Below are positions 7,034 through 30,677 of a DNA stretch of 33,012 nt, one piece after another. The DNA lies in the NCBI GenBank assembly GCA_001823215.1, contig MHTV01000012.1:1-33012 (forward strand), read 5' to 3'. A model generated the notes under the pieces. The model was not told where the DNA came from, made no database searches, and saw only the letters and a program-made list of their open reading frames with translations. A program made the position numbers and the translations under genes. The number at the start of each line of letters is the position of its first letter. Position 1 is the stretch's first letter. This DNA comes from Candidatus Wildermuthbacteria bacterium RIFCSPHIGHO2_02_FULL_45_25. Lineage in GTDB: Bacteria > Patescibacteriota > Minisyncoccia > Minisyncoccales > UBA10102.

Positions 7034-7068
7034 GAGACATCCGCAAAGTGGATGTCTCTTTGCTTTTA
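7034..7068 (+). terminator. Rho-independent terminator
   Basis: GAGACATCC-GCAAAGT-GGATGTCTC followed by TTTGCTTTTATTTT. Confidence 0.85.
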
Positions 7069-7101
7069 TTTTCCTACTGTGCCGAGAGAAGAAAAATTGC
7101 T

Positions 7102-7130
7102 TTGACTTTGAACATGTTCCTTGCTATATT
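7102..7130 (+). promoter_or_regulatory. Promoter for the HTH gene, apparently giving a leaderless mRNA
   Basis: TTGACT (7102-7107), 17 nt, TATATT (7125-7130); ATG at 7138. Confidence 0.7.
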
Positions 7131-7137
7131 GGGCTCG

Positions 7138-7884
7138 ATGAATCAGAAGGCATGTATTAAACTTGCACTTGCGGCGCACCGAGTTGCAGATTTGCTGCCC
7201 GAGGATCCGATTACGCAAGAAATTGAAGATATGGTGGATGGAATTCTGGCAAATTTGATTCTTTTTTGCGAGAAAGAAGCGGTGTCGTTGGAGAAGAAAA
7301 AAACGATTGGGTTGCAAATTCAACGCGAGATTGATATCTTGCAGGTGTATTTTCGCAGGGCTCGAAGAGAGGGATGGGTAGATCCCCGAAATTTTTTCGC
7401 GCTTGAGAAAGAATACGAGAAAATTCAGGAAATCATTTTGATGTTCGAAGATGCATGGGAATCTCTCTGCCATGAAACGAACAAGAGCATCTTGATTAAA
7501 CAATCGGCGGCGCATGACAACCCCGGTTCTTCGCGCCTTGTTCTTCAGACAGAAGAAACAAAGAAAGAACGGGAAGCATCTTTCCCAGGAGCAGAACCAT
7601 TTGAAAAATCGTATGTGAAAATTTCTGGAGCCACATTACCAACTGCGCAAGAAGAGATGTTGCATCAGGGAGTGACCGAAGGAGTACCGAATGGAGTTTC
7701 CGATCGCCAAAGAAAAATACTCGAAATGCTCAAACGCAAGGAAAAAGTGCAAGTCTGGGAGCTCCAAAAAATACTTCCGCAGGTAACGAAACGGACACTT
7801 CGCCGGGATATGGATGATTTGCTCCAAAAGAACCTCGTGGAGCGCAGAGGATCATGGAATGAAGTTTTTTATCAGCTCAAGTAG
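7138..7884 (+). CDS. Protein with C-terminal DeoR-like winged HTH
   Basis: DRQRKILEMLKRKEKVQVWELQKILPQVTKRTLRRDMDDLLQKNLVERRG. The ATG follows the promoter directly; the ORF start at 7048 lies inside the terminator. Confidence 0.8.
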   Translation: MNQKACIKLALAAHRVADLLPEDPITQEIEDMVDGILANLILFCEKEAVSLEKKKTIGLQIQREIDILQVYFRRARREGWVDPRNFFALEKEYEKIQEIILMFEDAWESLCHETNKSILIKQSAAHDNPGSSRLVLQTEETKKEREASFPGAEPFEKSYVKISGATLPTAQEEMLHQGVTEGVPNGVSDRQRKILEMLKRKEKVQVWELQKILPQVTKRTLRRDMDDLLQKNLVERRGSWNEVFYQLK

Positions 7885-8035
7885 AGAGATTGTCAAGGGG
7901 AACAGAATGTGTTAATGTGCTCGCAGAGAAGCAAGCTGTGGAAAACTTGTGGAGAAAACTAGGACAAGTAGGACATTGGTAGGAAGCGATATCTTTGGCA
8001 TGTGTCCTACCTCTCATCCTTCATGTCCTATCTCT

Positions 8036-8542
8036 ATGGAAAATTTTACCTCTATTTACGACCAGTACATTTCTCGTATTTATCGATTTATTTTCCTGAA
8101 AGTGGGGACTCGGGATGTCGCAGAAGACCTTTGTTCAGAGGTTTTTTTGCGTGTGTATGAAAAATATAAAGCAAGCGATATTCAAAATATCCAAGCGTTC
8201 CTCTATCAAACCGCTCGCAATCGAGTTATTGATTATTATCGCGATCGTAGCCGGAACGCGACGATCCCTTTGTATGATATCCATGAGGAAGATGGATTTG
8301 GTAGGACAGATGATATCCTAGGACAGGCGATAGTAAATTCGGAAATGGAGCATGTCCATAAGGCGCTCAAAAAAATCCATTCTGACTATCAAGATTTGAT
8401 TATTTGGCGGTATGTAGATGAACTTACCACAGGAGAAATCGCCCAGATTTCCAATAAAAGCGAGGGGGCGGTACGTGTAGCGCTGCATCGCGCTTTAAAG
8501 GCATTACGGGATGAATTGGCGTCTGTATCAAAACATGTTTGA
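8036..8542 (+). CDS. RNA polymerase sigma factor, sigma-70 family (ECF-like)
   Basis: Region 2 YISRIYRFIFLKVGTRDVAEDLCSEVFLRVYEKY…FLYQTARNRVIDYYRDRSR and region 4 DLIIWRYVDELTTGEIAQISNKSEGAVRVALHRALKALR. Start placed at MENFTS. Confidence 0.92.
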   Translation: MENFTSIYDQYISRIYRFIFLKVGTRDVAEDLCSEVFLRVYEKYKASDIQNIQAFLYQTARNRVIDYYRDRSRNATIPLYDIHEEDGFGRTDDILGQAIVNSEMEHVHKALKKIHSDYQDLIIWRYVDELTTGEIAQISNKSEGAVRVALHRALKALRDELASVSKHV

Positions 8543-8672
8543 ATTACGAAACCAGTACATTATGAGGGTTTGAGAACACGGATATTTTTCTGCTGAAAAA
8601 TTCCTTGTGCTCGCGCCAGTCGCGCTCCCAATGTTCTCAAACCCTCATAATGTACTTGTTTCGTAATTCAAA
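8538..8672 (+). repeat. Palindromic element copy C: 41-bp arms (8538-8578 / 8632-8672, one mismatch) around the conserved centre
   Basis: Arms are reverse complements except C8553·T8657. The centre matches copy A. The left arm overlaps the sigma-factor stop codon. Confidence 0.95.
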
Positions 8673-8728
8673 GAAAATATGCATGAAACGAGGTGTAACA
8701 CTCGAGCTGTTTATTCGTCTTATTTGTA

Positions 8729-9658
8729 ATGGCAGTAGAAAAAGAACAATTTTCTTTAGAGGAGCAGCAAATAAGAGAAAAACTCGCTGCTTTCAAGAAG
8801 CTTCACATAGAACCCAGACAAGAATGGGCGCTTTCGTTACGGGCACGTTTTGAGCAGAATATGACGAGAGAGTTTTCCCCAAGTTCCAGCGATTTGGAGG
8901 TCGCGACTTTTTCTGGTATATTGCATAGAATCCGCGTGGTATTACAATATATAGAGAGGCCTGCTTTTGTAATGCCTTTCTTGACGGTATTGGTTGCGGG
9001 AGGAGCAATCGCGCAAACAGCGCAAAAAAGTTTGCCGGGAGATACTTTCTATTCCGTGCGTTCTGCGGCAGAGCAAATCCCCTTACGCTTAACAAGCGGA
9101 GAAGATCGAGTGTTCGCGCAACTTGAACTGACTCAAAGGCGCTTCGTGGATCTTCGCAAGATTGCCCAGGAAAAAAGACAAAAGAATATTCCTTCGGCTA
9201 TCAGCGCGTTGGAAATAAGCATCGCGGCGGCGTCGAAGGGATTGGCAAAAGTTGCGCAAAACGAACCTGAAAAATCATTGGAAGTAGGGATGCAAATCGC
9301 ACAGCTCCAAAAAAACAAGAAAGAAATTGAGCAGATTCTGGGAACGAAAATTGGAGAAAACCAGGAAGGAGAATTGCAGGAGATCACCAAAAAACTTGTG
9401 GAAACCGAATTGAAAGATTTGCAGAGCCGCTCATTAACAGATACCCAGGCCAGATTGCTCATAGAGGCAGAAGATGCGTATAAAAATAAAGATTATCAGG
9501 GAGCATTTGAAAAAGTCTGGCTGGCAAGCAATAATGAAATGCAAGAAACGCCGCAAGAGCAAGGAGAAGCAAGTGAGAATATCGGCAATACAGATAGTAT
9601 GAATTCGAGAGAAGAAATAAGTGGAGATCAGAAAGAAGAGATTAGGCCGGCGAATTAA
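8729..9658 (+). CDS. DUF5667-like membrane protein, putative anti-sigma partner
   Basis: Single TM (FVMPFLTVLVAGGAIAQTA) then SLPGDTFYSVRSAAEQIPLRLTSGEDRVFAQLELTQRRFVDLRKIA, which resembles DUF5667. Immediately downstream of the sigma gene. Confidence 0.75.
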   Translation: MAVEKEQFSLEEQQIREKLAAFKKLHIEPRQEWALSLRARFEQNMTREFSPSSSDLEVATFSGILHRIRVVLQYIERPAFVMPFLTVLVAGGAIAQTAQKSLPGDTFYSVRSAAEQIPLRLTSGEDRVFAQLELTQRRFVDLRKIAQEKRQKNIPSAISALEISIAAASKGLAKVAQNEPEKSLEVGMQIAQLQKNKKEIEQILGTKIGENQEGELQEITKKLVETELKDLQSRSLTDTQARLLIEAEDAYKNKDYQGAFEKVWLASNNEMQETPQEQGEASENIGNTDSMNSREEISGDQKEEIRPAN

Positions 9659-9739
9659 CATTCGAGTAATATAATGGAAAGCTGACCCCGCATTGCGGGT
9701 TGAGAATAGAAAAATACAAGAAAAGGTCGAGATGCATGG

Positions 9740-9768
9740 TTTGAAATTCGAGATTCTCGAATTTCAAA
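9740..9768. promoter_or_regulatory. Perfect hairpin in the 5' leader of the surface-protein gene
   Basis: TTTGAAATTCGAG-ATT-CTCGAATTTCAAA, 13-bp perfect stem. Confidence 0.85.
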
Positions 9769-9818
9769 TCGCAATACGTTATTGTCGAATCAAAAAAATA
9801 AACAACAAACGAACAACA

Positions 9819-12800
9819 ATGAGTAGTTTAATCAAAAAGGTTTTCACGTTCGCCGTTGTCGCAATGGTTGCTTTGAGCGTAGCAGTTCCAGCAGGATCTG
9901 CGAACGCGCAAAGCGCGGCAGAATTGCAAGCAATGATTAACAGCTTGCTTGCGCAGATTCAAGCATTGCAGGCACAATTGGCATATTCACAAGGAGGACA
10001 GACGGGAGGAATCTCCGGTATTCCAGCAGGCTTTACCTTTACAAAAAATTTGCAGGTTGGAATGACAGGCACAGATGTAATGTATTTACAGAAACTCTTG
10101 AACTCTGATGCGATGACGCAAGTTGCCGCTTCCGGAGCTGGATCTCCAGGAAACGAGACCCAGTATTTTGGACCAGCAACTCGATCGGGAGTAATCAAGT
10201 TTCAGAATAAATACGCAAGCGAAATTTTAGCTCCAGTAGGTTTGACGGCAGGAACAGGTTACTTTGGACCAGGAACACGCGCAAAAGCAAATATGCTTTT
10301 GGCCGCGGTTCCAGTCTCAACTCCAACTCCAGTCGTATCTCCTACACCTACAATGAGTCCCGGAGCGACTCCGACGCCAACGACCAGCCCAATGGTATCC
10401 CCATCAGCTGGAAATTCGTTGAAAGTAACATTGGCTTCTGACACGCCAGCAGGCGCAAGCGTTGCTGACGCGGGAAATGCCAACATGACCAAGCTGTACC
10501 TTACAGCTGGAAGTCAGGAAGTATCTGTTTCATCTCTGTATGTAACAAGATATGGTCTGACTTCAAACTCCGACCTTGAGAACATTAAAATTCTCGATGA
10601 AGCGGGAATGAAGGTAGGTTCCATTGGTACCTTAAACACCAATAACAAAGCGCAGATTACATTCAGCCCCGCATTGGCAATTGCCGCCAATACCACAAAG
10701 ACGTATTACGTCCGAGCTGGTATTGCGGACGGAACATCTGGCGGAAAAACAGTATCGCTCGGAATTGGAGCGGCTTCTGATATCGTTGCAGGTTCAGCAA
10801 CCGTAGAAGGTTCTTTCCCTGTAAAAGGAAATGACTTTACGGTTGTCGCATTAGCCATCGGTGGAGTTGATGTGAAAGAAGACGGAGCAGTTACAGATTC
10901 TACTCCTGATGTAGGAGATGTAGATGTAATTGTAAACACCTTCAAGATTGTTGTTGACTCCACAGAGGCAGTAACAGTAGATTCCATCACGGTGATGGAA
11001 TCGGGTTCCGCTTCTTTATCTGACAGCAAAAATGTGGAGTTGTATGATGTAACCAATTCAGTATCTCTGGGAACAGCTCAATGGAATGCAGATGGAAAAG
11101 CGCATTTCGCAGGATTGAACATGAAGTTGGATAAGGGAGACACACGAAGACTCCGCGTCCAGCTTGATATCATCGGCGGAACAGGCTTGCAGGTGAATGC
11201 TGACTTGATGGATGGAGATGATGTATTGATGTCTGTTAAAGGTGATACCTATGGATTTTATATCACTCCAGATGGGAATGATGCCACTTTTTGGACAGAT
11301 ACCAATAATGGTTTGGGTAATGCAGAACAAACCATTAATTCCGGAGCTGTTACGGTCGTAAAATCTACTTCAACACCAGCAACAGGAAATATTGCGCAAG
11401 CAGATGACCAGACAGTCGCAGTATTTGATCTGGTTGTTCAGGGAGAAGAAGTAAAGATTACTTCGACACGAATCTCCTTTAATCTGGTAACCATGACAGA
11501 GGGTGAAGTGACGAATATCAAGTTATTGGATAAAGACGGTAACTTGATCGCGGGTCCCAAGGACATGAATACTACCGATGTAACAGGAGCTGACAGCACA
11601 ACATTTGAAGGTTCCGCGACCTTTACGGATACGATTATTTTCCCCGTAGGCACAAACCAAATCAAAGTTGTTGCCGATATTGCTACTGATACATCTGCGA
11701 GCGACACCATCGCGGCATCCTTTGCTGATGCAGACACTGACTTGACAATCACCGGAATGGAATCTAATAACACCATTACCGCGACACCCGGAGCAGCTGA
11801 AGTAACAGGAAATGTCCAGACAGTCAAAGCAGGAGATTTGGATCTTATTTCTTTGGCCCAACCTCCAATACAAAGCATTGCCAAGGGAGTAAGTGACTTT
11901 GTCTTCTCCTTGGTATCTCTGGATGCATCAGCTTCCGGAGAGGATGCGCAAGTAACATCCTTAACGGTATCTGATGTGACTTCTTCTGGTGCGGTACCAG
12001 CAGACTTAGATAACATCGAAATCTGGGCTGACCTTACAGCAGAAAACAGCTCACGAGGCGACGGGTATGAAACTCGCGTCGCAGGACCGGATTTCCTTGA
12101 TTCTACAACCGTAGGGGGTGACGACACCATTGCGTTTACCTTGACACAGTCTATTACCGTGCCTAAGGGTAGCGCGGTAAAGTTAGCAGTTATTGCTGAC
12201 TTAGCTTCCAACGCAACAGGAACAGTAGGAACAGATACGCATACCATTACAATCAGCGCCGCGACCGTAACCGGAAAAGCAACAGGAAACGATATCGTTG
12301 AGGATGCTTCCGGATCTGGTCAGGCCATGACAATTCAGACATCTGGTACGCTGACAACATCAGTTGACTCCTCTTCTCCAAAAGATATGTTGGTAACATC
12401 AGGTTCAACAGATGTTACAATCGCAGTGTTCCGATTTGCGGCAGACGCGGTAGAATCTCTTGATTTAGATGACATTGATTTTCGGATCAGTGGTGCATAC
12501 AAGATATCAACCTTCAAGTTCTATAAGGGAAGCGGAAGCACACCGGTAAAGAGCATTCCAGGACTTGTGGGAAGTTCTACCACAGCGCAGAGCTTGAATG
12601 TTCCGTTCGATGACAATACATTTATTGTTCCGGCTTCCGGAAACGAAAAGTTGACCATCAAAGCGGATTTCTTTAGCACAACGAATGCGACAGCAGACAA
12701 CAATCTTGATGTGGAAGTAACAATGCTTAACGCGGATACAACCGGAAAATCCTCTGGGAATTCTGGAGGTACTTTGACCGATGCAACAGATCGTGTCGCG

Positions 12801-13331
12801 AATAATCATTCGTTCTTCATGTCATATCCAACGGTTACCGGGAACTCTTCTTCACCATCTGGTGATTTGCAGGCAAGTTCAAGCGCATTGTTGGCGATCT
12901 TCGATGTCAAAGCAGGATCGAATGAAGATGTTACGTTCCAGAATGGAGATGGAAATACACTGACTATTAGCGTCTCTCAAACAATGACTGACTCTGATGG
13001 TTTGCTGAATGCGTATACACTGAAGGACGAAGATGGAACAACACTTGATACTACTGCCGCTGGCGCAGCCGGTACTGAAGATTCAAGCGTAACGGTACAG
13101 TTTGACTTCAGCACAGCAGACTTCACGGTATCAGCTGGTTTGGCCAGGAAGTTGTATGTGTATTCCAGCACGATGGAATTTGAAGATGACGGTGATACGA
13201 TTCAGGTATGGCTTGATGATGATACAGCCACCAATATTGACTGGGGTATCAATCAATTAGGAAGTTACAATCACGCCGATAAGATTTTCAAGAATGATAT
13301 CTTTGGCGGAAGCTTCGTAAATCCAAGCTAA
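9819..13331 (+). CDS. Large secreted surface/S-layer-like protein with N-terminal peptidoglycan-binding-like domain and Pro/Thr/Ser linker
   Basis: Signal peptide MSSLIKKVFTFAVVAMVALSVAVPAGSANAQS; LQVGMTGTDVMYLQKLLNSD…YFGPATRSGVIKFQNKY PG_binding_1-like; PTPVVSPTPTMSPGATPTPTTSP linker; long acidic Thr/Ser-rich beta-type regions. ATG 9819 is preferred over 9693. Confidence 0.85.
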   Translation: MSSLIKKVFTFAVVAMVALSVAVPAGSANAQSAAELQAMINSLLAQIQALQAQLAYSQGGQTGGISGIPAGFTFTKNLQVGMTGTDVMYLQKLLNSDAMTQVAASGAGSPGNETQYFGPATRSGVIKFQNKYASEILAPVGLTAGTGYFGPGTRAKANMLLAAVPVSTPTPVVSPTPTMSPGATPTPTTSPMVSPSAGNSLKVTLASDTPAGASVADAGNANMTKLYLTAGSQEVSVSSLYVTRYGLTSNSDLENIKILDEAGMKVGSIGTLNTNNKAQITFSPALAIAANTTKTYYVRAGIADGTSGGKTVSLGIGAASDIVAGSATVEGSFPVKGNDFTVVALAIGGVDVKEDGAVTDSTPDVGDVDVIVNTFKIVVDSTEAVTVDSITVMESGSASLSDSKNVELYDVTNSVSLGTAQWNADGKAHFAGLNMKLDKGDTRRLRVQLDIIGGTGLQVNADLMDGDDVLMSVKGDTYGFYITPDGNDATFWTDTNNGLGNAEQTINSGAVTVVKSTSTPATGNIAQADDQTVAVFDLVVQGEEVKITSTRISFNLVTMTEGEVTNIKLLDKDGNLIAGPKDMNTTDVTGADSTTFEGSATFTDTIIFPVGTNQIKVVADIATDTSASDTIAASFADADTDLTITGMESNNTITATPGAAEVTGNVQTVKAGDLDLISLAQPPIQSIAKGVSDFVFSLVSLDASASGEDAQVTSLTVSDVTSSGAVPADLDNIEIWADLTAENSSRGDGYETRVAGPDFLDSTTVGGDDTIAFTLTQSITVPKGSAVKLAVIADLASNATGTVGTDTHTITISAATVTGKATGNDIVEDASGSGQAMTIQTSGTLTTSVDSSSPKDMLVTSGSTDVTIAVFRFAADAVESLDLDDIDFRISGAYKISTFKFYKGSGSTPVKSIPGLVGSSTTAQSLNVPFDDNTFIVPASGNEKLTIKADFFSTTNATADNNLDVEVTMLNADTTGKSSGNSGGTLTDATDRVANNHSFFMSYPTVTGNSSSPSGDLQASSSALLAIFDVKAGSNEDVTFQNGDGNTLTISVSQTMTDSDGLLNAYTLKDEDGTTLDTTAAGAAGTEDSSVTVQFDFSTADFTVSAGLARKLYVYSSTMEFEDDGDTIQVWLDDDTATNIDWGINQLGSYNHADKIFKNDIFGGSFVNPS

Positions 13332-13381
13332 TATGTCACTCGTTCTCACTTCTTTCTCTTGTAAAAGGAAGTGAAAAACAG

Positions 13382-13416
13382 CCTCCCGCCAGTTTTCTGA
13401 CGGGAGGTTTGTTTTA
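13382..13416 (+). terminator. Rho-independent terminator after the surface-protein gene
   Basis: CCTCCCGCCAG-TTTT-CTGACGGGAGG followed by TTTGTTTT. Confidence 0.88.
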
Positions 13417-13431
13417 TCTTCAAAAGGAAGA

Positions 13432-13461
13432 TTGCCTATTTCTTCCAAATTTTGATATACT
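13432..13461 (+). promoter_or_regulatory. Promoter for the fused ligase/TPR gene, apparently leaderless
   Basis: TTGCCT (13432-13437), 18 nt, TATACT (13456-13461); ATG at 13469. Confidence 0.55.
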
Positions 13462-13468
13462 TGTGTAT

Positions 13469-15745
13469 ATGCGTTTTTCCTTTGAACTTTCGTGGAAAAA
13501 TTTTCTATTTGGAGGATTTCTTTTAATTGTTTGTCTTCTTCCTCTTATAGCCAGTGCGGTACTATTTTCTCCTCCTGTATGGGGGAAGACGATTGTATTT
13601 CGGATTTTCGTGGCGGTTTTACTGGTAGGAGAGATGTGGTATGTGTTTTTGCGAAATGGAAAGAAGACAATAGAAATTCCTGCATATCATAATCCTCTTT
13701 TTGTCCCAATTCTTTTATTATTTGGACTCGCGGGGATTTTTTTTCTCTCGACAATTTTTTCGCAGGACTTTTATATGAGTTTTTGGGGGATGCCCGAACG
13801 TTCCTGGGGGTTTTTAAATTTCTTGATTCTGGTATCTTTTTCTTTCCTGGCATTTCTTTTTCTTTCCAAGAGGCAATGGGATGTGGTGTGGAACGCGGCT
13901 CTTATAGGAGGAGTTGGAGTAGCGGGTCTTGCTTTCGCGCAGCAGTTCCATCTGCAAATAGTTGATGCATTTATCGTACGGGAAGGAAGACCCGTAGGCA
14001 CTCTTGGAAGTCCTATTGTATTGGGAGCATATCTCGTCTTGCTGGCCACTATTATGTGGACATTTTTGCTTGAGCAGAGGAGAAATATCGGAAAATTTAT
14101 ACCTTATGGATGCATAGGAGCTCTTTTTCTTCTCATCATTTTTTTTACGTTAAGCAGAGGAGCATGGATTGGTTTGGCGATAGCGCTTTGCTTTTTTGCT
14201 TTTTTCTATCCTATAAAAAAGAGGATAATACATATTGGTTTTGGTATTATCCTTTTGTTTGCTATCTCCGCTGTAGTATTGGTAAATACGATTCCCGCTT
14301 CTTTTGTTCAGAGTAAACCAGTTCTCTCCACAGTTTGGTATCGATTAGATGTGGAGATAATAGCTCAAGATCCGCGCATAGTAGCTTGGCAGGAATTAAT
14401 AAAAGCTGTTGGAGATCGTCCTGTAGGAGGGTATGGCGCATACAACTCTTCGGCGGGATTTGATAGATACTATCAACCTGGTTTTATATCCGCGACAGGA
14501 TGGTGGGATACTGCACATAATCTTTTCTTAGATATTCTTTTATGGGCAGGGATACCAGGGCTTCTCATTTTCCTTGGGTTTATGGGGATTCTCTTACGCC
14601 GACTTTCCCAAGTAAAACGGCAGCTTCCATTGTATACGTTGCGCGCTCATATGCTGCAAACGTTTTTTGTGGCGTATTTGGTTACTTTGTTTTTTTCGTT
14701 CGATATGTTCCCTATTTCTCTTTTGTTTTTCCTTGGTATTGGTTATGCTTTTTTCCTTATTTCTCGATTACCTTCCGGAAAGAAGCAATTCTTTGTTTTT
14801 CCGTTGTTATTATCGCCGATACAATATCTGCCCCTGTTGATCGGAGTTACTCTTGGAGCCGCTTGGTTTATATATAGCTACAATTTGGTACCGCTTTTTA
14901 TGAATAAGGAAATTGTGCTTGCAGTACATCAAGCACAAAGCGGAAGATGCGATGAGGCTTTTGAAAAAATGGATCAGATGATGCATACCGCCTCATTTTT
15001 TGCAGAGTATGCTCGTACTCGCTATACAGATGTGGTAGCTACTTGTATAGAGGATAGTTCTCCGGAAGCGCAGTTAGCGTTATCTGAGAAGGTAGTGGAT
15101 GTACTCTCCAAGAGCGCACACGTGCGGCCTCATTCTGTTCGAGTCTGGTTATTGCTTGGAGGGTATACGAATAATCTTATTGCTTTCAGTAAGAGTGATG
15201 AAGAGAAGAAAAAACTTGCAAAAAATGTGGAAGAATATTTCCAAAAAGCAGAAGCGTTGAGTCCGCGCCGCGAAGAGATTTTTTGGGAATGGATGCGAAC
15301 GTATCGCCTTATTGGCAATGAAGAACAAGTGTGGGCAAAGGCGACTGCTTGTATTGAAATACAACCAAAAAGAGGAGTTTGCTGGTGGGAAAGAGCAAAG
15401 ATTAATTTTGAACGAGGGGATATCCCTTTAATGAAGGAGGATATTAGAGAAGCTGAAACCAGAAAGTATTTTGTAGAGAAAGAACGTTTATTGGAGCTTC
15501 TTGGAGTTTATGAAAAATTAGCTAAAGGGTCTAAAGGAACTGAATTTTATAAGAACCTTGCGAGCGTATATGAAAGGATTATTTCTCTTGATCCTAAAAA
15601 TCCCCAATATTATGCGTCTCTTGCGTTTGTGTATCGAGAACTTAAGGAATATGTGTTTGCCAAAAACGCAGCCTATAAAGTGTTAGAGTTCAATCCAAAA
15701 GCTGAACCGATGGTTATGGAATTTCTTAAAACATTGCCTCAATAA
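13469..15745 (+). CDS. O-antigen ligase (Wzy_C-like) membrane domain fused to a C-terminal TPR domain
   Basis: Multi-TM; GGYGAYNSSAGFDRYY…WWDTAHNLFLDILLWAGIPGLLIFLGFMG ligase motif; C-terminal TPR-like repeats. Confidence 0.88.
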   Translation: MRFSFELSWKNFLFGGFLLIVCLLPLIASAVLFSPPVWGKTIVFRIFVAVLLVGEMWYVFLRNGKKTIEIPAYHNPLFVPILLLFGLAGIFFLSTIFSQDFYMSFWGMPERSWGFLNFLILVSFSFLAFLFLSKRQWDVVWNAALIGGVGVAGLAFAQQFHLQIVDAFIVREGRPVGTLGSPIVLGAYLVLLATIMWTFLLEQRRNIGKFIPYGCIGALFLLIIFFTLSRGAWIGLAIALCFFAFFYPIKKRIIHIGFGIILLFAISAVVLVNTIPASFVQSKPVLSTVWYRLDVEIIAQDPRIVAWQELIKAVGDRPVGGYGAYNSSAGFDRYYQPGFISATGWWDTAHNLFLDILLWAGIPGLLIFLGFMGILLRRLSQVKRQLPLYTLRAHMLQTFFVAYLVTLFFSFDMFPISLLFFLGIGYAFFLISRLPSGKKQFFVFPLLLSPIQYLPLLIGVTLGAAWFIYSYNLVPLFMNKEIVLAVHQAQSGRCDEAFEKMDQMMHTASFFAEYARTRYTDVVATCIEDSSPEAQLALSEKVVDVLSKSAHVRPHSVRVWLLLGGYTNNLIAFSKSDEEKKKLAKNVEEYFQKAEALSPRREEIFWEWMRTYRLIGNEEQVWAKATACIEIQPKRGVCWWERAKINFERGDIPLMKEDIREAETRKYFVEKERLLELLGVYEKLAKGSKGTEFYKNLASVYERIISLDPKNPQYYASLAFVYRELKEYVFAKNAAYKVLEFNPKAEPMVMEFLKTLPQ

Positions 15746-16792
15746 TTAGTTTCCGCCAAGAGATTTATCAAAAAGTCCAGGGAAGTGCGTTCGGATGCGT
15801 TGTTTAATGTTGGGCGCAAGTCCTTCGATGCGGTCATCCTGGCGAGGATATTCCTTTTGAGTCTTTTCAATAACTGCCCGGAGGAATATTTTTACTTGCT
15901 CCTTGGATGAGGGATCTTGATCCAGAAAATCTAATGCGTGAATAATTGCTTCTCTGTAACCGCCGTTGATTGTGGATTGGGCATAGGCCAAAGCAAGAGA
16001 CTGTGAATATGCCGGGGAAGGGCCTTCTAATACAATGAGCCGTTCATAAATTTCAAATAATTGATCATAGTTTTTTTGCTGGATAGCAATCGGTAGTAAG
16101 AGGTGCAGAAACTCTGCTCGGAGAAAATGTCTGCGCATCTCTGGATCTGCCTTTGGGCTGATATCGATGGCTTGACGTTCTCCGAGGAATATCTCCACAA
16201 GTATTTTCCATGCGAGACATCTGTTACTCGCTGGAAAGTAGATAAGGCATTGCTGGGCTGTCTCTTCTGCTTGAGGATACTGTTTGGTAAGGAGGAACGT
16301 ATAAGTCATGCGATCATAAATTTCTTCGCGTGAAGGACTTAATGCGAGAGCTTTTTCCATGGCGTAAATGGAAAGTTGTCCAAATTGTTGGCGTTGTTCA
16401 TCTGTTTGTGCATTTGCCATCATTAAATTGGTGTAAGCTGCAAGGGCAATCCATGACTTGGTCTCGTAAGGATAACGCTGTACGCGCTTTTGAAGAAGTT
16501 CTTGGATTTGCCATATACGTATGATACGAGTACTTTTATCCAATTGAGGGAAGCATTTAGTAGTGGCATCGATAAGCTGATTCTGGAGATATCGTTCTGT
16601 AAAAGTTTCTCGAGGCAAGGAATCAAGTATTTCAAATGCTTCATCGCATTCTTCTTGTTGCGTGAGCGCAATAACAAGATTTAACTTGTGATTGATTAAA
16701 AGAGGTTTCATGCTCATAGTATACATAAGCCAAAGACTGCTAGCTCCGAGAATCCCTAGGATGAGATATTTTGCGGGTTTTGAAAGTTTCAT
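15746..16792 (-). CDS. TPR protein with N-terminal TM, paralogous to the C-terminal half of 13469-15745
   Basis: EECDEAFEILDSL…KSWIALAAYTNLMMANAQTDE…EKALALSPSREEIYDRM matches RCDEAFEKMDQM…RVWLLLGGYTNNLIAFSKSDE…QKAEALSPRREEIFWEW. Confidence 0.82.
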   Translation of the reverse strand: MKLSKPAKYLILGILGASSLWLMYTMSMKPLLINHKLNLVIALTQQEECDEAFEILDSLPRETFTERYLQNQLIDATTKCFPQLDKSTRIIRIWQIQELLQKRVQRYPYETKSWIALAAYTNLMMANAQTDEQRQQFGQLSIYAMEKALALSPSREEIYDRMTYTFLLTKQYPQAEETAQQCLIYFPASNRCLAWKILVEIFLGERQAIDISPKADPEMRRHFLRAEFLHLLLPIAIQQKNYDQLFEIYERLIVLEGPSPAYSQSLALAYAQSTINGGYREAIIHALDFLDQDPSSKEQVKIFLRAVIEKTQKEYPRQDDRIEGLAPNIKQRIRTHFPGLFDKSLGGN

Positions 16793-18147
16793 GATGCTCG
16801 GGTTTTGTTTTTGTTGAACGATGGCGAAGGAAGAGAAAGGAGAAAAAGAGAATAAGCAATAAGCATAAAGAAAATAAGAGAGGTTGCGAAAGAATTAAAA
16901 GAAAAGACCATGGTTGTTAAATAAGCTACCATGGCGGTTTGGGTTATATGAATAGCGCGTGTATGCTCTGGAGACACAACGCGTTTTTTTGAAAGAAAGA
17001 AGAAAAGCGAACCCAAGAAACCCAAAAAAACAAGGAATCCTACAAATCCGGTGGTTACTGCCAAGTCCAGATAAAAATTGTGAAATGTGTCCCACCACCC
17101 TTCCATCCTTCCATAGAACCTTGGGTTGTTGGAATCAAAATAGCGGTCAAATGCTATGGAGGAGTTGTAGGGTCCATATCCAAAAAATGGCCGATCGTTG
17201 AGAGCTTGTATCGCAAAAGACCACGAAGCAAAGCGTGGTTCCGTATGGATAATTTCTTCCAGGGAAGATCGCTGCCAGATATTTGAGAGAAGTGTGCTAT
17301 TCTGTACGAAATTTGGCGGTGGAATAGTTTGAAGGAGAAGATACATCGTTATAGCCATGCCGATAAGCCCAAGGGCGACTATCCGAAGCAGCTTACTGCT
17401 TTTATGGGATGGATAAAAAAGGAAGAAAAAGAAAGTGCTAACCGCTAACCCCACGAAAGCCGCTCTGGTACCGCTTAAAACAATTCCAAAAAGCAAGAGA
17501 AGCGTAAAAGCAACGAAGAGAATTTTAGACTTAAGTGTAGAAGAATTCCAAAGGAAAGACACTGAAAATGGCAAAAGCGCAACAAGAAAAATAGCAAAGA
17601 ACATTGTGTTTCCGAAAGTGGAAGCAGGACGTCCGGGATCTGCCCGAATAAACGCAAGATTAATATTGAGATATTGGATAATGGCGATCAAGGTAGCCAC
17701 CAGTGCCACGCTAAGAGCTATTTTCCAAACTTTTTCCCAATTACGCTGAGAAAGCGTGAGGAAGAGGAATACTGCAAAGAAGATGTAACTAAGATCATTG
17801 AGAACTCCCCATCCTCGAAATGGAGTGCCGGAGAAACTAAAAGAGGGATCTAAAGAAAAAAGATTGGCAATCACCAAGATTCCTCCGAATCCCAAAAGTA
17901 ACAGAAATGGAATGCGAGCCGGCTTTTCTGGAAGTAACTTCCATGTATCCTTGAGGATGATTCTTGCGATAAAGAAGTTGGCAAGAAGGATAAATAGGAT
18001 ACGGAAAAGATTCGCTTGTACCCAAGGGACTGGAATTGCCCACGGCCAGCCATCTACCAAGGGAAGGAATAGAATGGTTAAAACACCGCCAAAGTAGAGC
18101 CAGGAGAAGGTATCGTTTCTTAGGTGTTCTATTGTATTGCTTCGCAT
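16789..18147 (-). CDS. O-antigen ligase (Wzy_C-like), paralogous to the N-terminal half of 13469-15745
   Basis: FFGYGPYNSSIAFDRYF…WWDTFHNFYLDLAVTTGFVGFLVFLGFLG; multi-TM; 4-nt ATGA overlap with the downstream TPR gene. Confidence 0.88.
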   Translation of the reverse strand: MRSNTIEHLRNDTFSWLYFGGVLTILFLPLVDGWPWAIPVPWVQANLFRILFILLANFFIARIILKDTWKLLPEKPARIPFLLLLGFGGILVIANLFSLDPSFSFSGTPFRGWGVLNDLSYIFFAVFLFLTLSQRNWEKVWKIALSVALVATLIAIIQYLNINLAFIRADPGRPASTFGNTMFFAIFLVALLPFSVSFLWNSSTLKSKILFVAFTLLLLFGIVLSGTRAAFVGLAVSTFFFFLFYPSHKSSKLLRIVALGLIGMAITMYLLLQTIPPPNFVQNSTLLSNIWQRSSLEEIIHTEPRFASWSFAIQALNDRPFFGYGPYNSSIAFDRYFDSNNPRFYGRMEGWWDTFHNFYLDLAVTTGFVGFLVFLGFLGSLFFFLSKKRVVSPEHTRAIHITQTAMVAYLTTMVFSFNSFATSLIFFMLIAYSLFLLSLPSPSFNKNKTRAS

Positions 18148-18308: not shown

Positions 18309-19307
18309 ATGGCATTGGATTTTGAAGGGAAAAATATCCTGGTAACCGGAGGTACAGGATCATTCGGGCAAAAATTTGTGGAAGTTGTGTTAAAAGAGCA
18401 CAATCCCCGATCAATTCGGGTATTTTCTCGAGGAGAGCACGCCCAATGGGAAATGGCGCAAAAATTTCAAGATGAGCGCATGCGCTTTTTGATTGGAGAC
18501 GTACGAGATAAGGAACGTTTGTCTCGTGCCATGAATGATGTGGATATCGTAGTGCACGCTGCTGCTTTAAAGCAGATTGTGCTTGGAGAATACAATCCTC
18601 TTGAGGTTATTCAGACCAATGTTATGGGAAGCGCAAATGTCATTGATGCCGCTATCGATAACAATGTAAACAGGGTGTTGTTTATTAGTACGGACAAAGC
18701 GGTAAACCCCGTGAACTTGTATGGCGGAACAAAGCTTTGCGCCGAGCGTCTTTTTGTGCAGGCAAATGTGTATGTGGGGCAGAATCGCAGAACGAAATTC
18801 GCTGTTGCCCGTTATGGAAACGTGGTGGGCAGCCGCGGAAGCGCGATTCCGCTTTTTCTTGAGCAAAAGAAATCGGGAAGAATCACGGTAACAGATCAGC
18901 GCATGACTCGTTTTTGGATCACTCTCGATCAGGGGGTGCGCTTTGTGCTGAATTCTTTGGATCGTATGCAGGGTGGAGAAGTGTTTGTTCCAAAAATACC
19001 AAGCACAAAAGTAATGGATTTGGTGGATGTGATTGCGCCAGGCGCGGAGGTTGATTTTATTGGTATCCGCCAAGGCGAAAAATTGCATGAGATTTTACTG
19101 GCAGAAGAAGAGAGCCGTCACGCAAGAGAATTTGATTCCTTTTTTCTTGTGGAACCGGAATTCTCATTTTGGAAAGCTGAATCTATTACTGGGGGTATAC
19201 GTATTCAGGAGAAATTTATTTATTCAAGCGATTCGAATAGTCACTGGCTCACAAAAGAGGAGCTTCAGGAGATTGTTCGGCTGTATCAAGGAGGTTTGGA
19301 GGTATAA
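18309..19307 (+). CDS. pseB: UDP-N-acetylglucosamine 4,6-dehydratase (inverting), PseB-like
   Basis: NAD-binding TGGTGSFGQKFV, RVFSRGEHAQWEM, HAAALKQIVLGEYNPLEVIQTNVMGSANVIDAA, STDKAVNPVNLYGGTKLCAE. Confidence 0.92.
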   Translation: MALDFEGKNILVTGGTGSFGQKFVEVVLKEHNPRSIRVFSRGEHAQWEMAQKFQDERMRFLIGDVRDKERLSRAMNDVDIVVHAAALKQIVLGEYNPLEVIQTNVMGSANVIDAAIDNNVNRVLFISTDKAVNPVNLYGGTKLCAERLFVQANVYVGQNRRTKFAVARYGNVVGSRGSAIPLFLEQKKSGRITVTDQRMTRFWITLDQGVRFVLNSLDRMQGGEVFVPKIPSTKVMDLVDVIAPGAEVDFIGIRQGEKLHEILLAEEESRHAREFDSFFLVEPEFSFWKAESITGGIRIQEKFIYSSDSNSHWLTKEELQEIVRLYQGGLEV

Positions 19308-19378
19308 AATGCGTTTGCTTGACATTTTTAATCTGATATGGCAGAAGTAGTATAGCTATTCGCGGGAGGGAAACGATT

Positions 19379-20365
19379 ATGTTTATGCCATGGTTTTGGT
19401 TGATTCCGGTGGGACTGCGAGTTGTTACTGCGCATATTGCAGTGCCGATTATGCTGAAGCATGTGACGGGGATGCCGTCGCGGCTGCAGAAATTTGCGCT
19501 TCAATTTGGTTTCGCTTTTATCTTTGCGGTTACTCTATGGGCGATCGCATGGGTGGTTAAACAGCGAGGCGGATTTGAAGATGTCCCATGGTTTCAGGAA
19601 GCGCTGGATCCTGCGTTGCCAGGAATTCTCTGGTATATTGCCCTGTTCGGAGTGGTCAACGCGTTTGCCGCATACGCGCAATGGCGCGCGGTGGATATCA
19701 GCATGAGCAAGAATGCTCTGTTTGGGCAAGCTGATGATTTTCTCGCGCTTCTATTGGGCTATACAATTCTCCATGAAGCGGAGATTCTGACGCCTTATCT
19801 GGCGTTCGGAGTTATTCTGTGCATGGTTGCGGCTCCGGTATTTACCGTTGTTTCCAATAAATACGGCGCAAAAACTTCCGGTCCTAAAGTGCTGGGCATA
19901 AAAATACCCCAGCTACTTTTGTGGGTTGGAATGTACACTTTCGTGTGGGGTTTTGCGGAAGTGCTCATGCGAGGGTATGCGTCCACGAGTGTTCCTCTGC
20001 CCGGATTCATGGTTGCGTGGTACGCGGGAAGTTTGTTGGGAGCTTCTCTGATGTTTCTGATGTTCAGAAAAAAAGAGAAGTTGCAGGGGATTTCTTCCAA
20101 GAGATTCTTTGGGCTTAAAGCGGTGGCAACACTCGGATTCCTAATCTTCATGTCCAATGCTTTGGCATACTCCGCTCTTTGGATGGCGGAATTAACCAAA
20201 GTAATTCCTATTTTCCAAGGAACCGAGATCGTGTTTCCCTTGCTGATTGGCCTCTATGTCTTCAAAGAGCGTAAAGGGCTTCATTGGCAAGAAGGAGCCG
20301 TGCTGGCAGTGGGAGCAATTGGAGTGGTGATTGTAGTCGTGGCCTCGCATTGGCCGCTCTTCTAA
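19379..20365 (+). CDS. EamA/DMT-family-like multi-TM transporter
   Basis: About ten hydrophobic segments; C-terminal TKVIPIFQGTEIVFPLLIGLYVFKERKGLHWQEGAVLAVGAIGVVIVV typical of EamA. GGAGGG upstream of the ATG. Confidence 0.75.
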   Translation: MFMPWFWLIPVGLRVVTAHIAVPIMLKHVTGMPSRLQKFALQFGFAFIFAVTLWAIAWVVKQRGGFEDVPWFQEALDPALPGILWYIALFGVVNAFAAYAQWRAVDISMSKNALFGQADDFLALLLGYTILHEAEILTPYLAFGVILCMVAAPVFTVVSNKYGAKTSGPKVLGIKIPQLLLWVGMYTFVWGFAEVLMRGYASTSVPLPGFMVAWYAGSLLGASLMFLMFRKKEKLQGISSKRFFGLKAVATLGFLIFMSNALAYSALWMAELTKVIPIFQGTEIVFPLLIGLYVFKERKGLHWQEGAVLAVGAIGVVIVVVASHWPLF

Positions 20366-20374
20366 GGAGGTTAA

Positions 20375-20410
20375 AGAAAGGTCTCCCTTGCAAAGCAGGG
20401 AGACCTTTCT
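20375..20410 (+). terminator. Terminator-like hairpin after the EamA-like gene
   Basis: AGAAAGGTCTCCC…GGGAGACCTTTCT, 13-bp arms; no long T-tract beyond the stem. Confidence 0.65.
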
Positions 20411-20490
20411 GATTGCTTTACCTTGATTTTTATGCGAATATGCGGTAAAGTATGTGTGGTTTTTTCCAGAAAATTCGAGGAGGCAAAAAC

Positions 20491-21405
20491 ATGGGAGAGA
20501 ATGTTTTCCGGAGAGCCAAAACGGTTGCAGATCAAGTTGCAGATCAAGTGGAATCTGCGCTTCAGGAAGCGAATCGGCTTGGAGAACCAGATCGAGTTGC
20601 TGTAAGGCAACTCAACGAGGAAGGCATTCATTTGGGAGTGCAACAAGGGCGTTTTGAAGAAGCGCTGGCGTCCTTTTTGGAGGGGTTGCGCAAGAGTGGC
20701 CATGATCTCCAATTGCGCGCGGATTCTCTCATGAACATGGGGGATATGTTGCGCAGGGGGCCGGGCGATCTCGACCTTGCCCGAAAGCTCTTTGTCATGG
20801 CGGAGTTGATGCCGCTCTCATTCACACGCAGATCTCGTCTGCGTACCATGGAGGCAATGCTGTACATTCATGCGACCGAGCAAGGGAAAAATGATCCTTG
20901 GGGAATTGCTAAGAACCTGGCGTTGCTTGAGGAAGCGATAGTTTTGGCAGATGCTGCCACCCAAGAAAACCCTGAAGAATCTTGGGCAGCAAAACTTTTT
21001 GCTGCTCATAGGTACTTGGGGACGATTGGTGTCTTTGGGAATCCAGATCAAAAGGCAAAGGGTTTGAGGCTCATTCATCAGTTGCTTCCCTTGCTGGATC
21101 CTAATTCTCCATCTGCGGCACGGTTCAAGTATTCTCAATCTTTAATCGTCCGTTCGGAATATCCCCAAGAGTCGGTAATGCTCCTTATGCAGAGTGCTGA
21201 ACGCATGAAAGAGGAGTTTCCTCTGGATGCGGGAGCATATCTCGCTTTGGCGGGGTTGATCTGCATCGAGGATCTCAAAGATACCGAACAAGCGGAGGAA
21301 TACTGGAAACAAGCGGAGGAATTTCGAGAGAGAATTGCAAAATTCAGCAATAGTGGCTATGTTATAGTCACATTGGATAAGTTGAAGCAAGCTCTCGGAA
21401 AGTAA
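20491..21405 (+). CDS. TPR-like repeat protein, function unknown
   Basis: Helical repeat pattern; AGGAGG at good spacing upstream of ATG 20491 (the ORF track start at 20452 is less likely). Confidence 0.65.
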   Translation: MGENVFRRAKTVADQVADQVESALQEANRLGEPDRVAVRQLNEEGIHLGVQQGRFEEALASFLEGLRKSGHDLQLRADSLMNMGDMLRRGPGDLDLARKLFVMAELMPLSFTRRSRLRTMEAMLYIHATEQGKNDPWGIAKNLALLEEAIVLADAATQENPEESWAAKLFAAHRYLGTIGVFGNPDQKAKGLRLIHQLLPLLDPNSPSAARFKYSQSLIVRSEYPQESVMLLMQSAERMKEEFPLDAGAYLALAGLICIEDLKDTEQAEEYWKQAEEFRERIAKFSNSGYVIVTLDKLKQALGK

Positions 21406-21483
21406 TAAAGTGGCGGGCCTCGTGTCCGCCATTGTTATTTTTGAAGAGGATATGATATTGTAAACTATATAATTTTTACCCTT

Positions 21484-22128
21484 ATGAGTACGCTGAATGA
21501 GCAAAGATGGGGAGGAGAGTTTGGAGAAGAATATACAATGAGGAATCCATTAGATATGCAAGCTATGGATGGCTTGTATATGGAGAGTTATGGAGTCTCA
21601 AGAGCAATGCTAAATAAAGAATTTCTCGATAGTTTAAACCGTTCAATAAAAATTTTAGAAGTTGGAGCGAATGTTGGGATGCAACTTGCTCTTCTCCAAA
21701 AAATTGGCTTTGAGTCTCTTTACGGAGTTGAACTAAATAGAAAAGCGATCGAGATTTCCCGGTCGTTTACAAAAAATATCGATATTATTCAAGGTTCAGC
21801 ATTAGATATCCCTTTTAAGGATCATTTTTTTGATTTGGTATTGACTTCAGGGGTGCTTATTCATATTCCCCCTTCAAATATCCAGCAGGCAATAAGCGAA
21901 ATTCATAGATGTACGAAGAGATATATATGGGGCTTTGAGTATTATGCACCTGCCTATACCGACGTTGTGTACAGGGGAAAGAACGATATGTTGTGGAAGG
22001 CAGATTTCGCAAAACTCTATCTTGATTCGTTTGCGGATGTAGAATTAGTGAAGGAGAAGGAATTAAAGTATCGAAGCAATGAAAATGTGGACAAGATGTT
22101 TCTATTGAAGTTGAAAGATAAAAATTAG
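21484..22128 (+). CDS. SAM-dependent methyltransferase, pseudaminic-acid-biosynthesis-associated methylase type
   Basis: EQRWGGEFGEEYTMRN N-terminus, SAM motif ILEVGANVGMQLALL, DIPFKDHFFDLVLTSGVLIHIPP. Confidence 0.85.
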   Translation: MSTLNEQRWGGEFGEEYTMRNPLDMQAMDGLYMESYGVSRAMLNKEFLDSLNRSIKILEVGANVGMQLALLQKIGFESLYGVELNRKAIEISRSFTKNIDIIQGSALDIPFKDHFFDLVLTSGVLIHIPPSNIQQAISEIHRCTKRYIWGFEYYAPAYTDVVYRGKNDMLWKADFAKLYLDSFADVELVKEKELKYRSNENVDKMFLLKLKDKN

Positions 22129-22252
22129 CGCAATTATGTAAGTAGATAGGTCTTTAATGTATCTACCAACAAAGGTCGGCAATGGTTAGAAAAAAACAAC
22201 TTAGGGCTGCTCCTGATTTGGGGCTTATAATGTAAGGATTATATCTGATACT

Positions 22253-23692
22253 ATGAAATGGTGCTTTATTGTAAATAATGCTCCTTTTTTAACGGAATTT
22301 TTTATCAAGCTCTCTCGGGAAGTTGTTAAGACAAACGACGAATGCCTTGTTATTTTAACGAGCAAGTTTGTCGAATACGAAAAAAAAATGCTTTTCCCCG
22401 CTCCAACAAAGTTTATCTCTAAGGTCGATTGGATCAGACAATCTTATCGGCCAGGAAGTGTAGCATTTCACAATGTTTCATGGAAAGAGTTTTTCCCCTT
22501 ATTCGATAGGTCAAAGCGTATTTCTTTAGATTATGAAAAAGCGTTTGATCGAACTGATCAAGATTATCAATTTTACCAATATATTTTCGAATCAGAAAAT
22601 CCTGATTTGATATTGTTTGAGCCTCCAAGTGGCATAGGCACTGAAATCGCTTATCTGTTCGCCCGAGAACGAAAGATCCCCTACTTGGGAATTCTTGTTT
22701 CAAGAATTCCTGATCGCCTGGAGATATGCGATTTAGAATGTGTTGATGCCCATTCCTGTTCTTTATTTGAGCATTTATTGATGGAAGAAATTACTTCAGA
22801 GGAACGTGAATTCGCGCAGAATTACATTCGCAGTTTTCTTTTACATACTAAAGTGCCCTCTTATGTAGGAACGCAAAAGGTTATATTTTCTCCTTTGGGA
22901 TTTATCTGGCATTATATCCAAGCTATACGGAAAAAAGGAAAGGCGCTTGTGTGGTATGCAAAAATACGAAAAGAAGTGAAACGATATGATGTTGAAAGTG
23001 AGATCCGTTGGATGCGAAGTTTTGCTGCCCCTCTTGAGATGTTACGCAGACAGTTTCGCATCTTGTCGCAAAAGAGGATATATAGCCTTTATGACGAACG
23101 AGATAAAAACCGTTTTTTTGTTTATCCTCTGCAACTACAGCCTGAAACTTCCACATCACTATGCGCTACCTATTACAATGATCAATTAAGTACCATTCAA
23201 AATATTGCTTTCACGTTGCCTTTTCCTTATAAACTATATGTCAAAGAACATCCTGCGGCTATTGGCACGCGAGAAAATTTATTCTATAAAAGGCTCAAGA
23301 AAATCCCTCATGTAGTTCTCATTGCTCCTGAAGAACAAGTTTCTCGACTTATTAAGAATTGCTGTGGCGTGATAACCCTTACAAGTACAGTTGGGATGGA
23401 ATCTGCGCTCGCAGGCAAACCAACCTATGTTTTAGGGAGTGCTGCGTATGAATATCATCCCTTATGCAGAAAAATTTCTAGCTTTGACCAGTTAAGAGAG
23501 TCTCTGCGGCAAGATAGAGAACGTCCTCCTGAAAGCCCCGATCTGCAAGAATTGAATTTACGTTTTATTGTCTCTTATTTAAGGAGAACTTTGCAGGGAG
23601 ATATTATTGCTTCTTGCAGGGAAACCGATTCAAATAATTATGCCGAAATTTATCAAAGTTTTCGAAGAAGAGCTCTCGAGTTGCGTGGATAG
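22253..23692 (+). CDS. Capsule polysaccharide biosynthesis/export-type protein (possible glycosyltransferase)
   Basis: C-terminal LYVKEHPAAIGTRENLFYKRLKKIPHVVLIAPEEQVSRLIKNCCGVITLTSTVGMESALAGKPTYVLGSAAY resembles the Capsule_synth family. Confidence 0.72.
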   Translation: MKWCFIVNNAPFLTEFFIKLSREVVKTNDECLVILTSKFVEYEKKMLFPAPTKFISKVDWIRQSYRPGSVAFHNVSWKEFFPLFDRSKRISLDYEKAFDRTDQDYQFYQYIFESENPDLILFEPPSGIGTEIAYLFARERKIPYLGILVSRIPDRLEICDLECVDAHSCSLFEHLLMEEITSEEREFAQNYIRSFLLHTKVPSYVGTQKVIFSPLGFIWHYIQAIRKKGKALVWYAKIRKEVKRYDVESEIRWMRSFAAPLEMLRRQFRILSQKRIYSLYDERDKNRFFVYPLQLQPETSTSLCATYYNDQLSTIQNIAFTLPFPYKLYVKEHPAAIGTRENLFYKRLKKIPHVVLIAPEEQVSRLIKNCCGVITLTSTVGMESALAGKPTYVLGSAAYEYHPLCRKISSFDQLRESLRQDRERPPESPDLQELNLRFIVSYLRRTLQGDIIASCRETDSNNYAEIYQSFRRRALELRG

Positions 23693-29204: not shown

Positions 29205-30677
29205 TTATTCTTCTTTAAGTAAGCGAGCAGAATTTCTTTGTTTGAGAAAGCTCAAAAAGAATGTTATTTCTTTCTTTGTAATACCCTTGAAAAGCAGAAT
29301 AAGGATTGTATAGGACACGATACCAACTGTTATTGCAAAGAGCGTGCTCCAAAGTTCTTTGGGATGGAGAAGGAATACGATACCTGCCATAAGCAAAGAG
29401 GCAAGAGTACTCTTGAAGATAAACTTCCAATCTATAGGAAATGGGAAAAAGCGGTTAGCAAAATACCAAATGAGCGCGAACGCGAAAAAGTAGGATATGA
29501 GAGTGGTTATTGCGGCTCCTGTAATACCGAACGTAGGGATAAAAAGCATATTAAGCATAAAGTTGATCACAGCAGATCCGATCCATATGCTCCCAAGAAT
29601 ACGTGTTTTTTTATATAACAATAAAACCTGGCTAAAAATGGTGGATGTATTGTAGAGAAATAGACTTAAAGCTACAAGGGAAACAATAGATGATGCATTT
29701 CGGGCAATCTCTTCTGTGGAAAAAATAGTAAGTAATGGAGACGCGAGAATTGTAAGACCGAAGACCGATGGGATTGAAACGAGTAAAAGATATTTAAGAG
29801 AATAGCTTAAATATCTTTTACTTTCTACGAGTTTGTTTGCGGCAAATAATTTTGTTACGGTTGGCTGTAATACAAAAACAAGAGAGATGATAAGAATGTT
29901 TAAGGTATTTCCAAGGGCATAAGCTGGCATATAGTAGCCTACAAAAAGTACTCCCCAGAATCCAGCTATAATATAGCGATCACTTGCTTGGACGATCTTG
30001 TAAGAGAAGCTACCGAATACAGAAGGTATGCTGAAATGAAGATATTCTCGCAGTCTGGAGAAGTGAGGGATTGCAAATCCTATTTTACGAAACACTATTA
30101 TGCTTGCTACTAAAAAAGTTCCTATTTGGATGAGGAGTAAAGAAGTAATTGCTCCTGTAATTCCCAAACCAAGGAAGATAGATCCAATAACCAGAACGAG
30201 TTCTCCAAATGTAATAGCAAATTCAAAACAAGCGAACCTGACGATTTCTCCGAAAGCATGAAATACTGCAAGAAGAGAAGTATTCAGAGACTTAAAGAGA
30301 ATTAATAATCCAAGAAGTATAACGAGAGAATCTGGAATTTTTAATAGGGTTGCAATGCTATTGTGGTACACAGAAAAAATTATGCTAATTCCAATGGCAG
30401 GAATAAGAATAAAGATAAAGACAGACCAAATTTGATCTCGAATATGGGAGAGTTCTTTAGTTCCGGGAATAAATCTTGTAAAAGCTTCTGGCAGTCCCCA
30501 AAGGATAAAAGGGCTTACAAAGCTAACTGTGATAAGAATTTGTGACCATACCCCATATGCTTCAGCCCCAAGAGTTTTTGTGAGAATAGGCAAAAGGATA
30601 ATTCCCTTCAGTCGGACGATGATTTGAACAAAACCAGATACCCCCGTATCTTTTATAAATTTTGCGTAGTTCTGCAT
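29205..30677 (-). CDS. Polysaccharide flippase (Wzx/MATE-like)
   Basis: About twelve or more TM segments; N-terminal FIKDTGVSGFVQIIVRLKGIILLPILTKTLGAEAYGVWSQILITVSFVSPFILWGLPEAFTRF is typical of the family. Confidence 0.85.
   Translation of the reverse strand: MQNYAKFIKDTGVSGFVQIIVRLKGIILLPILTKTLGAEAYGVWSQILITVSFVSPFILWGLPEAFTRFIPGTKELSHIRDQIWSVFIFILIPAIGISIIFSVYHNSIATLLKIPDSLVILLGLLILFKSLNTSLLAVFHAFGEIVRFACFEFAITFGELVLVIGSIFLGLGITGAITSLLLIQIGTFLVASIIVFRKIGFAIPHFSRLREYLHFSIPSVFGSFSYKIVQASDRYIIAGFWGVLFVGYYMPAYALGNTLNILIISLVFVLQPTVTKLFAANKLVESKRYLSYSLKYLLLVSIPSVFGLTILASPLLTIFSTEEIARNASSIVSLVALSLFLYNTSTIFSQVLLLYKKTRILGSIWIGSAVINFMLNMLFIPTFGITGAAITTLISYFFAFALIWYFANRFFPFPIDWKFIFKSTLASLLMAGIVFLLHPKELWSTLFAITVGIVSYTILILLFKGITKKEITFFLSFLKQRNSARLLKEE

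Follow-up and report, generated by a model that had tools for sequence, protein, structure and literature searches.

The window analysed here is the entire contig MHTV01000012.1 (C12; 33,012 bases) of a draft genome of 868 kb, which comes from an uncultured bacterium of ultra-small size, comprises 46 contigs and is estimated to be 97% complete. Two neighbouring loci encode Wzy_C proteins with a TPR half (Table 1). The + copy is a single gene, the open reading frame of which can be extended to a TTG codon at 13409 (13409-15745); the likely start is the ATG at 13469. The - copy encodes the corresponding halves as two proteins. No base separates the stop codon of its TPR gene from that of the + gene (15745/15746). 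The two loci probably specify related membrane enzymes that attach sugar chains to the neighbouring surface-coat protein, here termed SURF.

Table 1. Features of the window and tandem copies in two relatives
Feature	Positions	Strand	Remarks
HTH regulator	7048..7884	+	Upstream of SURF in 23/23
ECF-type sigma factor	7949..8542	+	Upstream of SURF in 30/30
DUF5667 protein	8729..9658	+	Upstream of SURF in 25/34
SURF, large secreted surface protein, candidate acceptor	9810..13331	+	1,173 aa; located upstream of the + copy
Fused gene, putative O-oligosaccharyltransferase (O-OTase)	13469..15745	+	758 aa; 12-TM Wzy_C ligase half, TM13, predicted extracytoplasmic TPR half
Split copy, TPR half, own signal-anchored protein	15746..16792	-	348 aa; a single TM helix at the N-terminus precedes a TPR solenoid
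ATGA start/stop overlap, 4 nt	16789..16792	-	At the split; predicted cytoplasmic loop between last ligase TM helix and TPR anchor
Split copy, ligase half	16789..18147	-	452 aa, Wzy_C; Arg228, Arg305 and His356 kept
PseB-like UDP-GlcNAc 4,6-dehydratase	18309..19307	+	473 bits against TIGR03589 cut-off of 408; starts glycan cluster
Wzx/MATE-type flippase	29205..30677	-	Plausible exporter of lipid-linked glycan
Tandem copies in G101 (locus L098)	2506-6808		One fused and one split, the combination seen in the window
Tandem copies in G105 (locus L083)	8615-13728		Recent sisters

The ligase halves of the two copies share 40% identity over 415 aligned residues (score 649, shuffle maximum 79) and the TPR halves 30% over 297 (score 280, shuffle maximum 56); in each half the similarity lies tens of shuffle standard deviations above chance. 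PF04932 (Wzy_C) matches the two ligase halves with 72.4 and 75.0 bits against a gathering score of 31.7, and no other Wzy_C protein was found in the 868 kb genome. Pfam TPR matches in the TPR halves are weak and below threshold, but consistent. The PglL_A motif (PF15864) is absent from the Pfam matches of both copies at E ≤ 0.01, and no strong repeats were found at the locus. The initial annotation had described convergent O-antigen-ligase/TPR paralogues, the + copy fused and the - copy split at a 4-nt ATGA, with shared motifs running through both halves. The reading frames and the sequence bear this out, and every motif pair that it quoted is present within the homologous alignment.

Architecture and origin of the two copies

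Arg215, Arg288 and His338 are required in Escherichia coli WaaL and are conserved in PglL (PMC3643930). Alignment with the WaaL structure (PDB entry 7tpg) places Arg230, Arg303 and His350 of the + protein and Arg228, Arg305 and His356 of the - protein at these positions. Amongst 60 aligned rows Arg303 and His350 are invariant and Arg230 is present in 57, and the three residues are also retained in the other split forms described below. The AlphaFold2 model of the fused protein (pLDDT 91.5, pTM 0.90) matches WaaL 7tpg in its membrane half (TM-score normalised by target 0.63, E 2.7e-5; E 1.7e-7 in the profile search). For the C-terminal half, models and profile search alike yield TPR superhelices. 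The split-off - TPR chain is likewise modelled with confidence (pLDDT 91.9, pTM 0.84) and matches TPR folds in the PDB. Since the catalytic residues are kept and the models of the fused protein and the - TPR chain are confident, neither copy looks decayed.

In the fused model 12 helices form the ligase half. The catalytic loop (about residues 275-351) lies between TM9 and TM10, a second loop spans residues 432-449 and a long helix from residue 450 opens the TPR half. With the N-terminus in the cytoplasm, the split point would face the cytoplasm, and the catalytic loop and the TPR half the exterior. The - TPR protein begins with MKLSKPAK followed by a TM helix, as expected of an N-in signal anchor. 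A pair of cysteines in the TPR half is all-or-none over the 60 rows (both in 52, neither in eight, a single one in none), which fits a disulfide on the outer face. That the TPR half faces outside had been proposed earlier; as a prediction from sequence this is supported by hydropathy, the positive-inside rule, the 12+1 arrangement of TM helices and the cysteine pair, all of which agree.

In the full-length tree the + gene clusters (98/84) with copies from two relatives, G005 and G023, in each case the copy proximal to the surface protein. The - gene clusters (98/88) with G003 and with the distal G023 copy. Because the two genes group with different paralogues in relatives, the pair would appear to consist of old tandem paralogues, of which the + copy has since been inverted: the - copy retains the convergent orientation to SURF, and the + copy sits flipped between the - copy and SURF. 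A recent inverted duplication within this genome is disfavoured by the best tree, although a sister relation of the two genes is compatible with the data (p 0.31). Unrelated phylogenies of the halves had been raised as a concern. In the TPR-half tree the - copy has the longest branch (1.98), and the tree is compatible with co-inheritance; since placement of the - TPR half with the same seven-row group passes (AU p 0.32), the histories of the halves do not appear demonstrably unrelated.

Recurrent fission at one predicted cytoplasmic loop

A single-sequence search of the genomes' contigs gave no relative; an alignment query was successful. At the thresholds used, the family is present in 82 of 247 genomes of the order and 212 of 384 of the class. 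Its members are nearly all in one frame, of about 640-950 aa (mostly about 640-880 aa in the class), fusion being the usual state throughout the class. Two further single genomes are split at the loop that is broken in the - copy. In G029 the halves share a 7-nt ATGTTAA overlap, and the sister G122 is fused; in G101 the overlap is 14 nt, in the other frame, the split copy lies beside a fused tandem copy and the sister G112 is fused. Five class-level genomes (loci L231-L235 in G504, G553, G491, G498 and G413), which form one clade with full support, carry a ligase of about 440-520 aa directly followed by a protein of about 200 aa with an N-terminal TM helix. The small protein gives weak TPR matches in four; that of L234 gives none at threshold, yet aligns by eye. 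The junctions in L231-L235 are +12, -4, +7, -17 and -4 nt.

The ligase tree requires four fission changes, in three single genomes (this genome, G029 and G101) and in the five-genome clade, and a one-clade origin of the three single-genome splits is rejected (AU p 8e-5). Fission has therefore taken place on at least four occasions, each time at this predicted cytoplasmic loop. Faster evolution of the TPR half as a general result of fission was considered and dropped: the TPR/ligase branch ratio is raised in this genome (2.1) and in G101 (2.4), G029 shows no such rise (1.1), and equally high ratios occur in some fused copies.

A sequencing indel at the junction had been named as a possible cause of the split. 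That the break is such an error of sequencing or assembly, or the early decay of a redundant copy, with the - gene a single frame or a pseudogene, is in our view very improbable, even though the genome is a metagenome-type draft, the - TPR half evolves fast and its frame extends without a stop over the 34 codons before its own ATG, such that a frame change could join the halves. Catalytic and TPR residues are conserved and the TPR fold is confident. A random indel is unlikely because splits recur independently at the same loop, with other overlaps and frames; the chance that three independent random indels fall within one loop of about 25 of the 758 residues is estimated at about (25/758)^2 given the first. 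No frame break was seen elsewhere in 57 other aligned copies, an apparent further split in G204 being a run of N. The 4-nt overlap itself is an ordinary gene junction in compact genomes such as these, and one also joins tandem fused copies in G005 and G112. Nor do we think it probable that ribosomes shift by -1 within the A-rich stretch preceding the overlap and so make some fused product, giving a short and a full-length enzyme. The TPR frame does lie at -1 to the ligase frame and continues open upstream, and AAC AAA AAC AAA ACC precedes the stop, but a canonical slippery heptamer is absent, the own ATG of the TPR reading frame stands directly before the anchor helix, the G101 split is in the other frame and the gaps of 7 and 12 nt in the clade could not be bridged by frameshifting. 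We are highly confident that the split of the - copy is real.

A conserved surface-protein locus

SURF has a signal peptide and a weak PG_binding_1 match, together with a coiled coil and beta-rich repeats, both judged by eye. It also contains a linker rich in Pro/Ser/Thr (77% over a stretch of 30 residues). Such linkers are frequent but not universal amongst its homologues. A SURF homologue lies within 2.5 kb of the transferase in 38 of the 39 core contigs with enough flank, in 37 convergent and in one on the same strand. This is the linkage to a surface protein gene that characterizes the WsfB type discussed below, the term surface protein implying no S-layer role for SURF. In one of the split class-level loci (L231) the ligase and TPR-like pair also adjoins a SURF-like gene, on the same strand. 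Together with the HTH regulator, the sigma factor and the DUF5667 protein, SURF forms an order-wide block (7048-13331) that suggests a regulated surface coat. Further SURF paralogues lie elsewhere in the genome (G000:C13:19-1509 and G000:C30:4353-8456, G000 being this genome), with 38-47% identity to segments of SURF, and are possible additional acceptors. Between SURF and the + transferase there is a terminator-like inverted repeat (13382-13407; 11 pairs, eight of them G-C), so that the two are probably transcribed as separate units; the frequency of consensus promoters and terminators did not exceed that in shuffles.

PglL-type O-OTases often adjoin the gene of their target, and adjacency has served to find targets (PMC3643930). 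In outgroup members with the same architecture SURF was adjacent in none of the five with flank, plus one on the same strand, and copies lie in sugar clusters without SURF. The acceptor may therefore vary.

SURF and TPR distances were compared over 32 genomes by partial Mantel tests, which may be liberal where the taxa are related. With sigma-factor and ligase distances controlled for, the partial correlation is 0.39 (p 0.001); SURF does not correlate in this way with ligase distances (-0.25). The signal survives leaving out any one multi-member family. By segment, the correlation with SURF is 0.41 for TPR1, 0.22 for TPR2, 0.13 for LIG2 and 0.04 for LIG1; a recombination gradient as the cause is not favoured, since it predicts the strongest signal in TPR2, at the 3' end. 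The DUF5667 and HTH proteins also correlate with the TPR half (0.33 and 0.19), and part of the co-divergence is therefore locus-wide and the signal not fully specific to SURF; adding DUF5667 or HTH distances leaves SURF and TPR correlated at 0.37 and 0.31, respectively. SURF divergence is thus matched more closely by TPR than by ligase divergence, though not with full specificity, and we regard this as supportive but not conclusive. The earlier suggestion that the surface protein next door is the likely partner is strengthened by the synteny and by co-divergence that persists after control for neighbouring genes.

The downstream glycan cluster also encodes a DegT aminotransferase, a CMP-sugar-synthase-like cytidylyltransferase, methyltransferases and a WbuX-type N-acetyl-sugar amidotransferase with GATase and HisF-like partners, which probably serve sugar metabolism and not histidine. 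A PseI synthase scores above cut-off on contig C17 (G000:C17:1141-2208). With this PseI, the genes at 18309-28385 suggest a pathway to a nonulosonic (pseudaminic/legionaminic-type) acid with an amidotransferase, and the glycan may plausibly contain a sugar like pseudaminic or legionaminic acid, perhaps one that bears an acetamidino group. A polytopic membrane protein at 19379-20365, which has no Pfam or NCBIfam match, has relatives (27-28%) in a similar locus of G029 and G122. At the contig end (30810-32088, - strand) an AbiEii-type nucleotidyltransferase toxin gene and an overlapping upstream partner are likely to form a type IV toxin-antitoxin pair.

Proposed function and known systems

We consider both loci to encode WsfB-type (Wzy_C plus TPR) O-OTases for a surface glycoprotein, and put the probability of this reading at about 0.6. 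From the homology, fold, catalytic residues, recurrent fission at one loop and synteny with SURF, which are established by computation, we infer enzymatic activity, glycan donor, acceptor, coupling and reassembly as follows. The adjacent sugar cluster would make a polyprenyl-linked glycan, which the flippase would export. The membrane half would take this glycan and transfer it on the outer face by means of the conserved Arg/Arg/His loop. The TPR half, hanging outside on the thirteenth TM helix, would hold the acceptor, most likely SURF. In the - copy the chain would be cut in the cytoplasmic loop before the thirteenth helix, such that the TPR half is a signal-anchored protein in its own right, produced through translational coupling at the ATGA, and the two chains would reassemble in the membrane. 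The interpretation offered in the initial annotation is as a whole partly supported.

Wzy_C alone cannot tell a polymerase, WaaL and an O-OTase apart, and the two proteins might instead be polysaccharide polymerases or ligases with a lipid or wall acceptor, the TPR half being a scaffold or chain-length partner that does not bind the acceptor. The flanking genes, typical of O-antigen or capsule clusters, the missing PglL_A motif and the outgroup copies in sugar clusters without SURF all fit such a role. It would leave the near-fixed linkage to one surface protein and the co-divergence of SURF with the TPR half, not the ligase half, to be explained, and elsewhere fused Wzy_C-TPR enzymes are predicted S-layer O-OTases (PMC2943079). 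We judge this role to be possible but unlikely, and prefer the assignment as O-OTases of a surface glycoprotein.

Several known systems resemble parts of the present one. WaaL shares the fold of the membrane half and the catalytic residues; it differs in having no TPR half and in its acceptor, lipid A-core. Patescibacteria are not known to have an outer membrane. The PglL/PilO enzymes have Wzy_C, the Arg/Arg/His residues and frequent adjacency to the gene of the target protein (PMC3643930), and PglL also bears a C-terminal TPR motif (PMC2943079). Their targets are pilins, however, and PglL_A was not detected here. WsfB of Paenibacillus alvei, a predicted S-layer O-OTase, combines Wzy_C with a C-terminal TPR (PMC2943079), as does the + copy, and is likened to it by architecture, not by sequence. 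WsfB belongs to Bacillota; here the setting is Patescibacteria, where two paralogues occur with an ECF sigma factor and a surface gene in convergent orientation. WsaB of Geobacillus stearothermophilus has no TPR, and its neighbour wsaA encodes a separate TPR protein, a complementing role of which was under investigation (PMC2943079). This resembles the - copy in arrangement, a TPR-less Wzy_C protein beside a separate TPR gene. WsaA is encoded upstream, has 168 aa and its role is unproven (PMC2943079), whereas the - TPR gene lies downstream, encodes 348 aa with a membrane anchor, overlaps the ligase gene by ATGA and has a fused paralogue adjacent to it.

By analogy with WsfB, which is fused, and with WsaB and its separate TPR protein WsaA (PMC2943079), neither form is new in kind. 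In the open-access literature we found no description of O-OTase/surface-protein pairing in Patescibacteria. As far as our searches of that literature show, it is new that fission has occurred repeatedly and independently at one loop, that Patescibacteria have a conserved module of sigma factor, surface protein and O-OTase, and that one genome has fused and split forms side by side. We would advance only tentatively the idea, which we think doubtful, that the TPR half is a separable acceptor-recognition subunit evolving with the coat, and that repeated fission frees it to serve or swap ligases. Were it true, genomes with one fused and one split copy, of which this one and G101 are examples, would operate two enzymes of coat glycosylation that differ in their choice of acceptor or glycan, from a coat locus that is under sigma-factor control and is conserved across an order of Patescibacteria. 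The assembly and decoration of the outer coat with which Patescibacteria presumably meet their hosts are poorly understood. With its natural series of fused and split forms and an adjacent candidate acceptor, the family makes the proposal from S-layer systems, that a separate TPR protein may complement a TPR-less transferase, directly testable.
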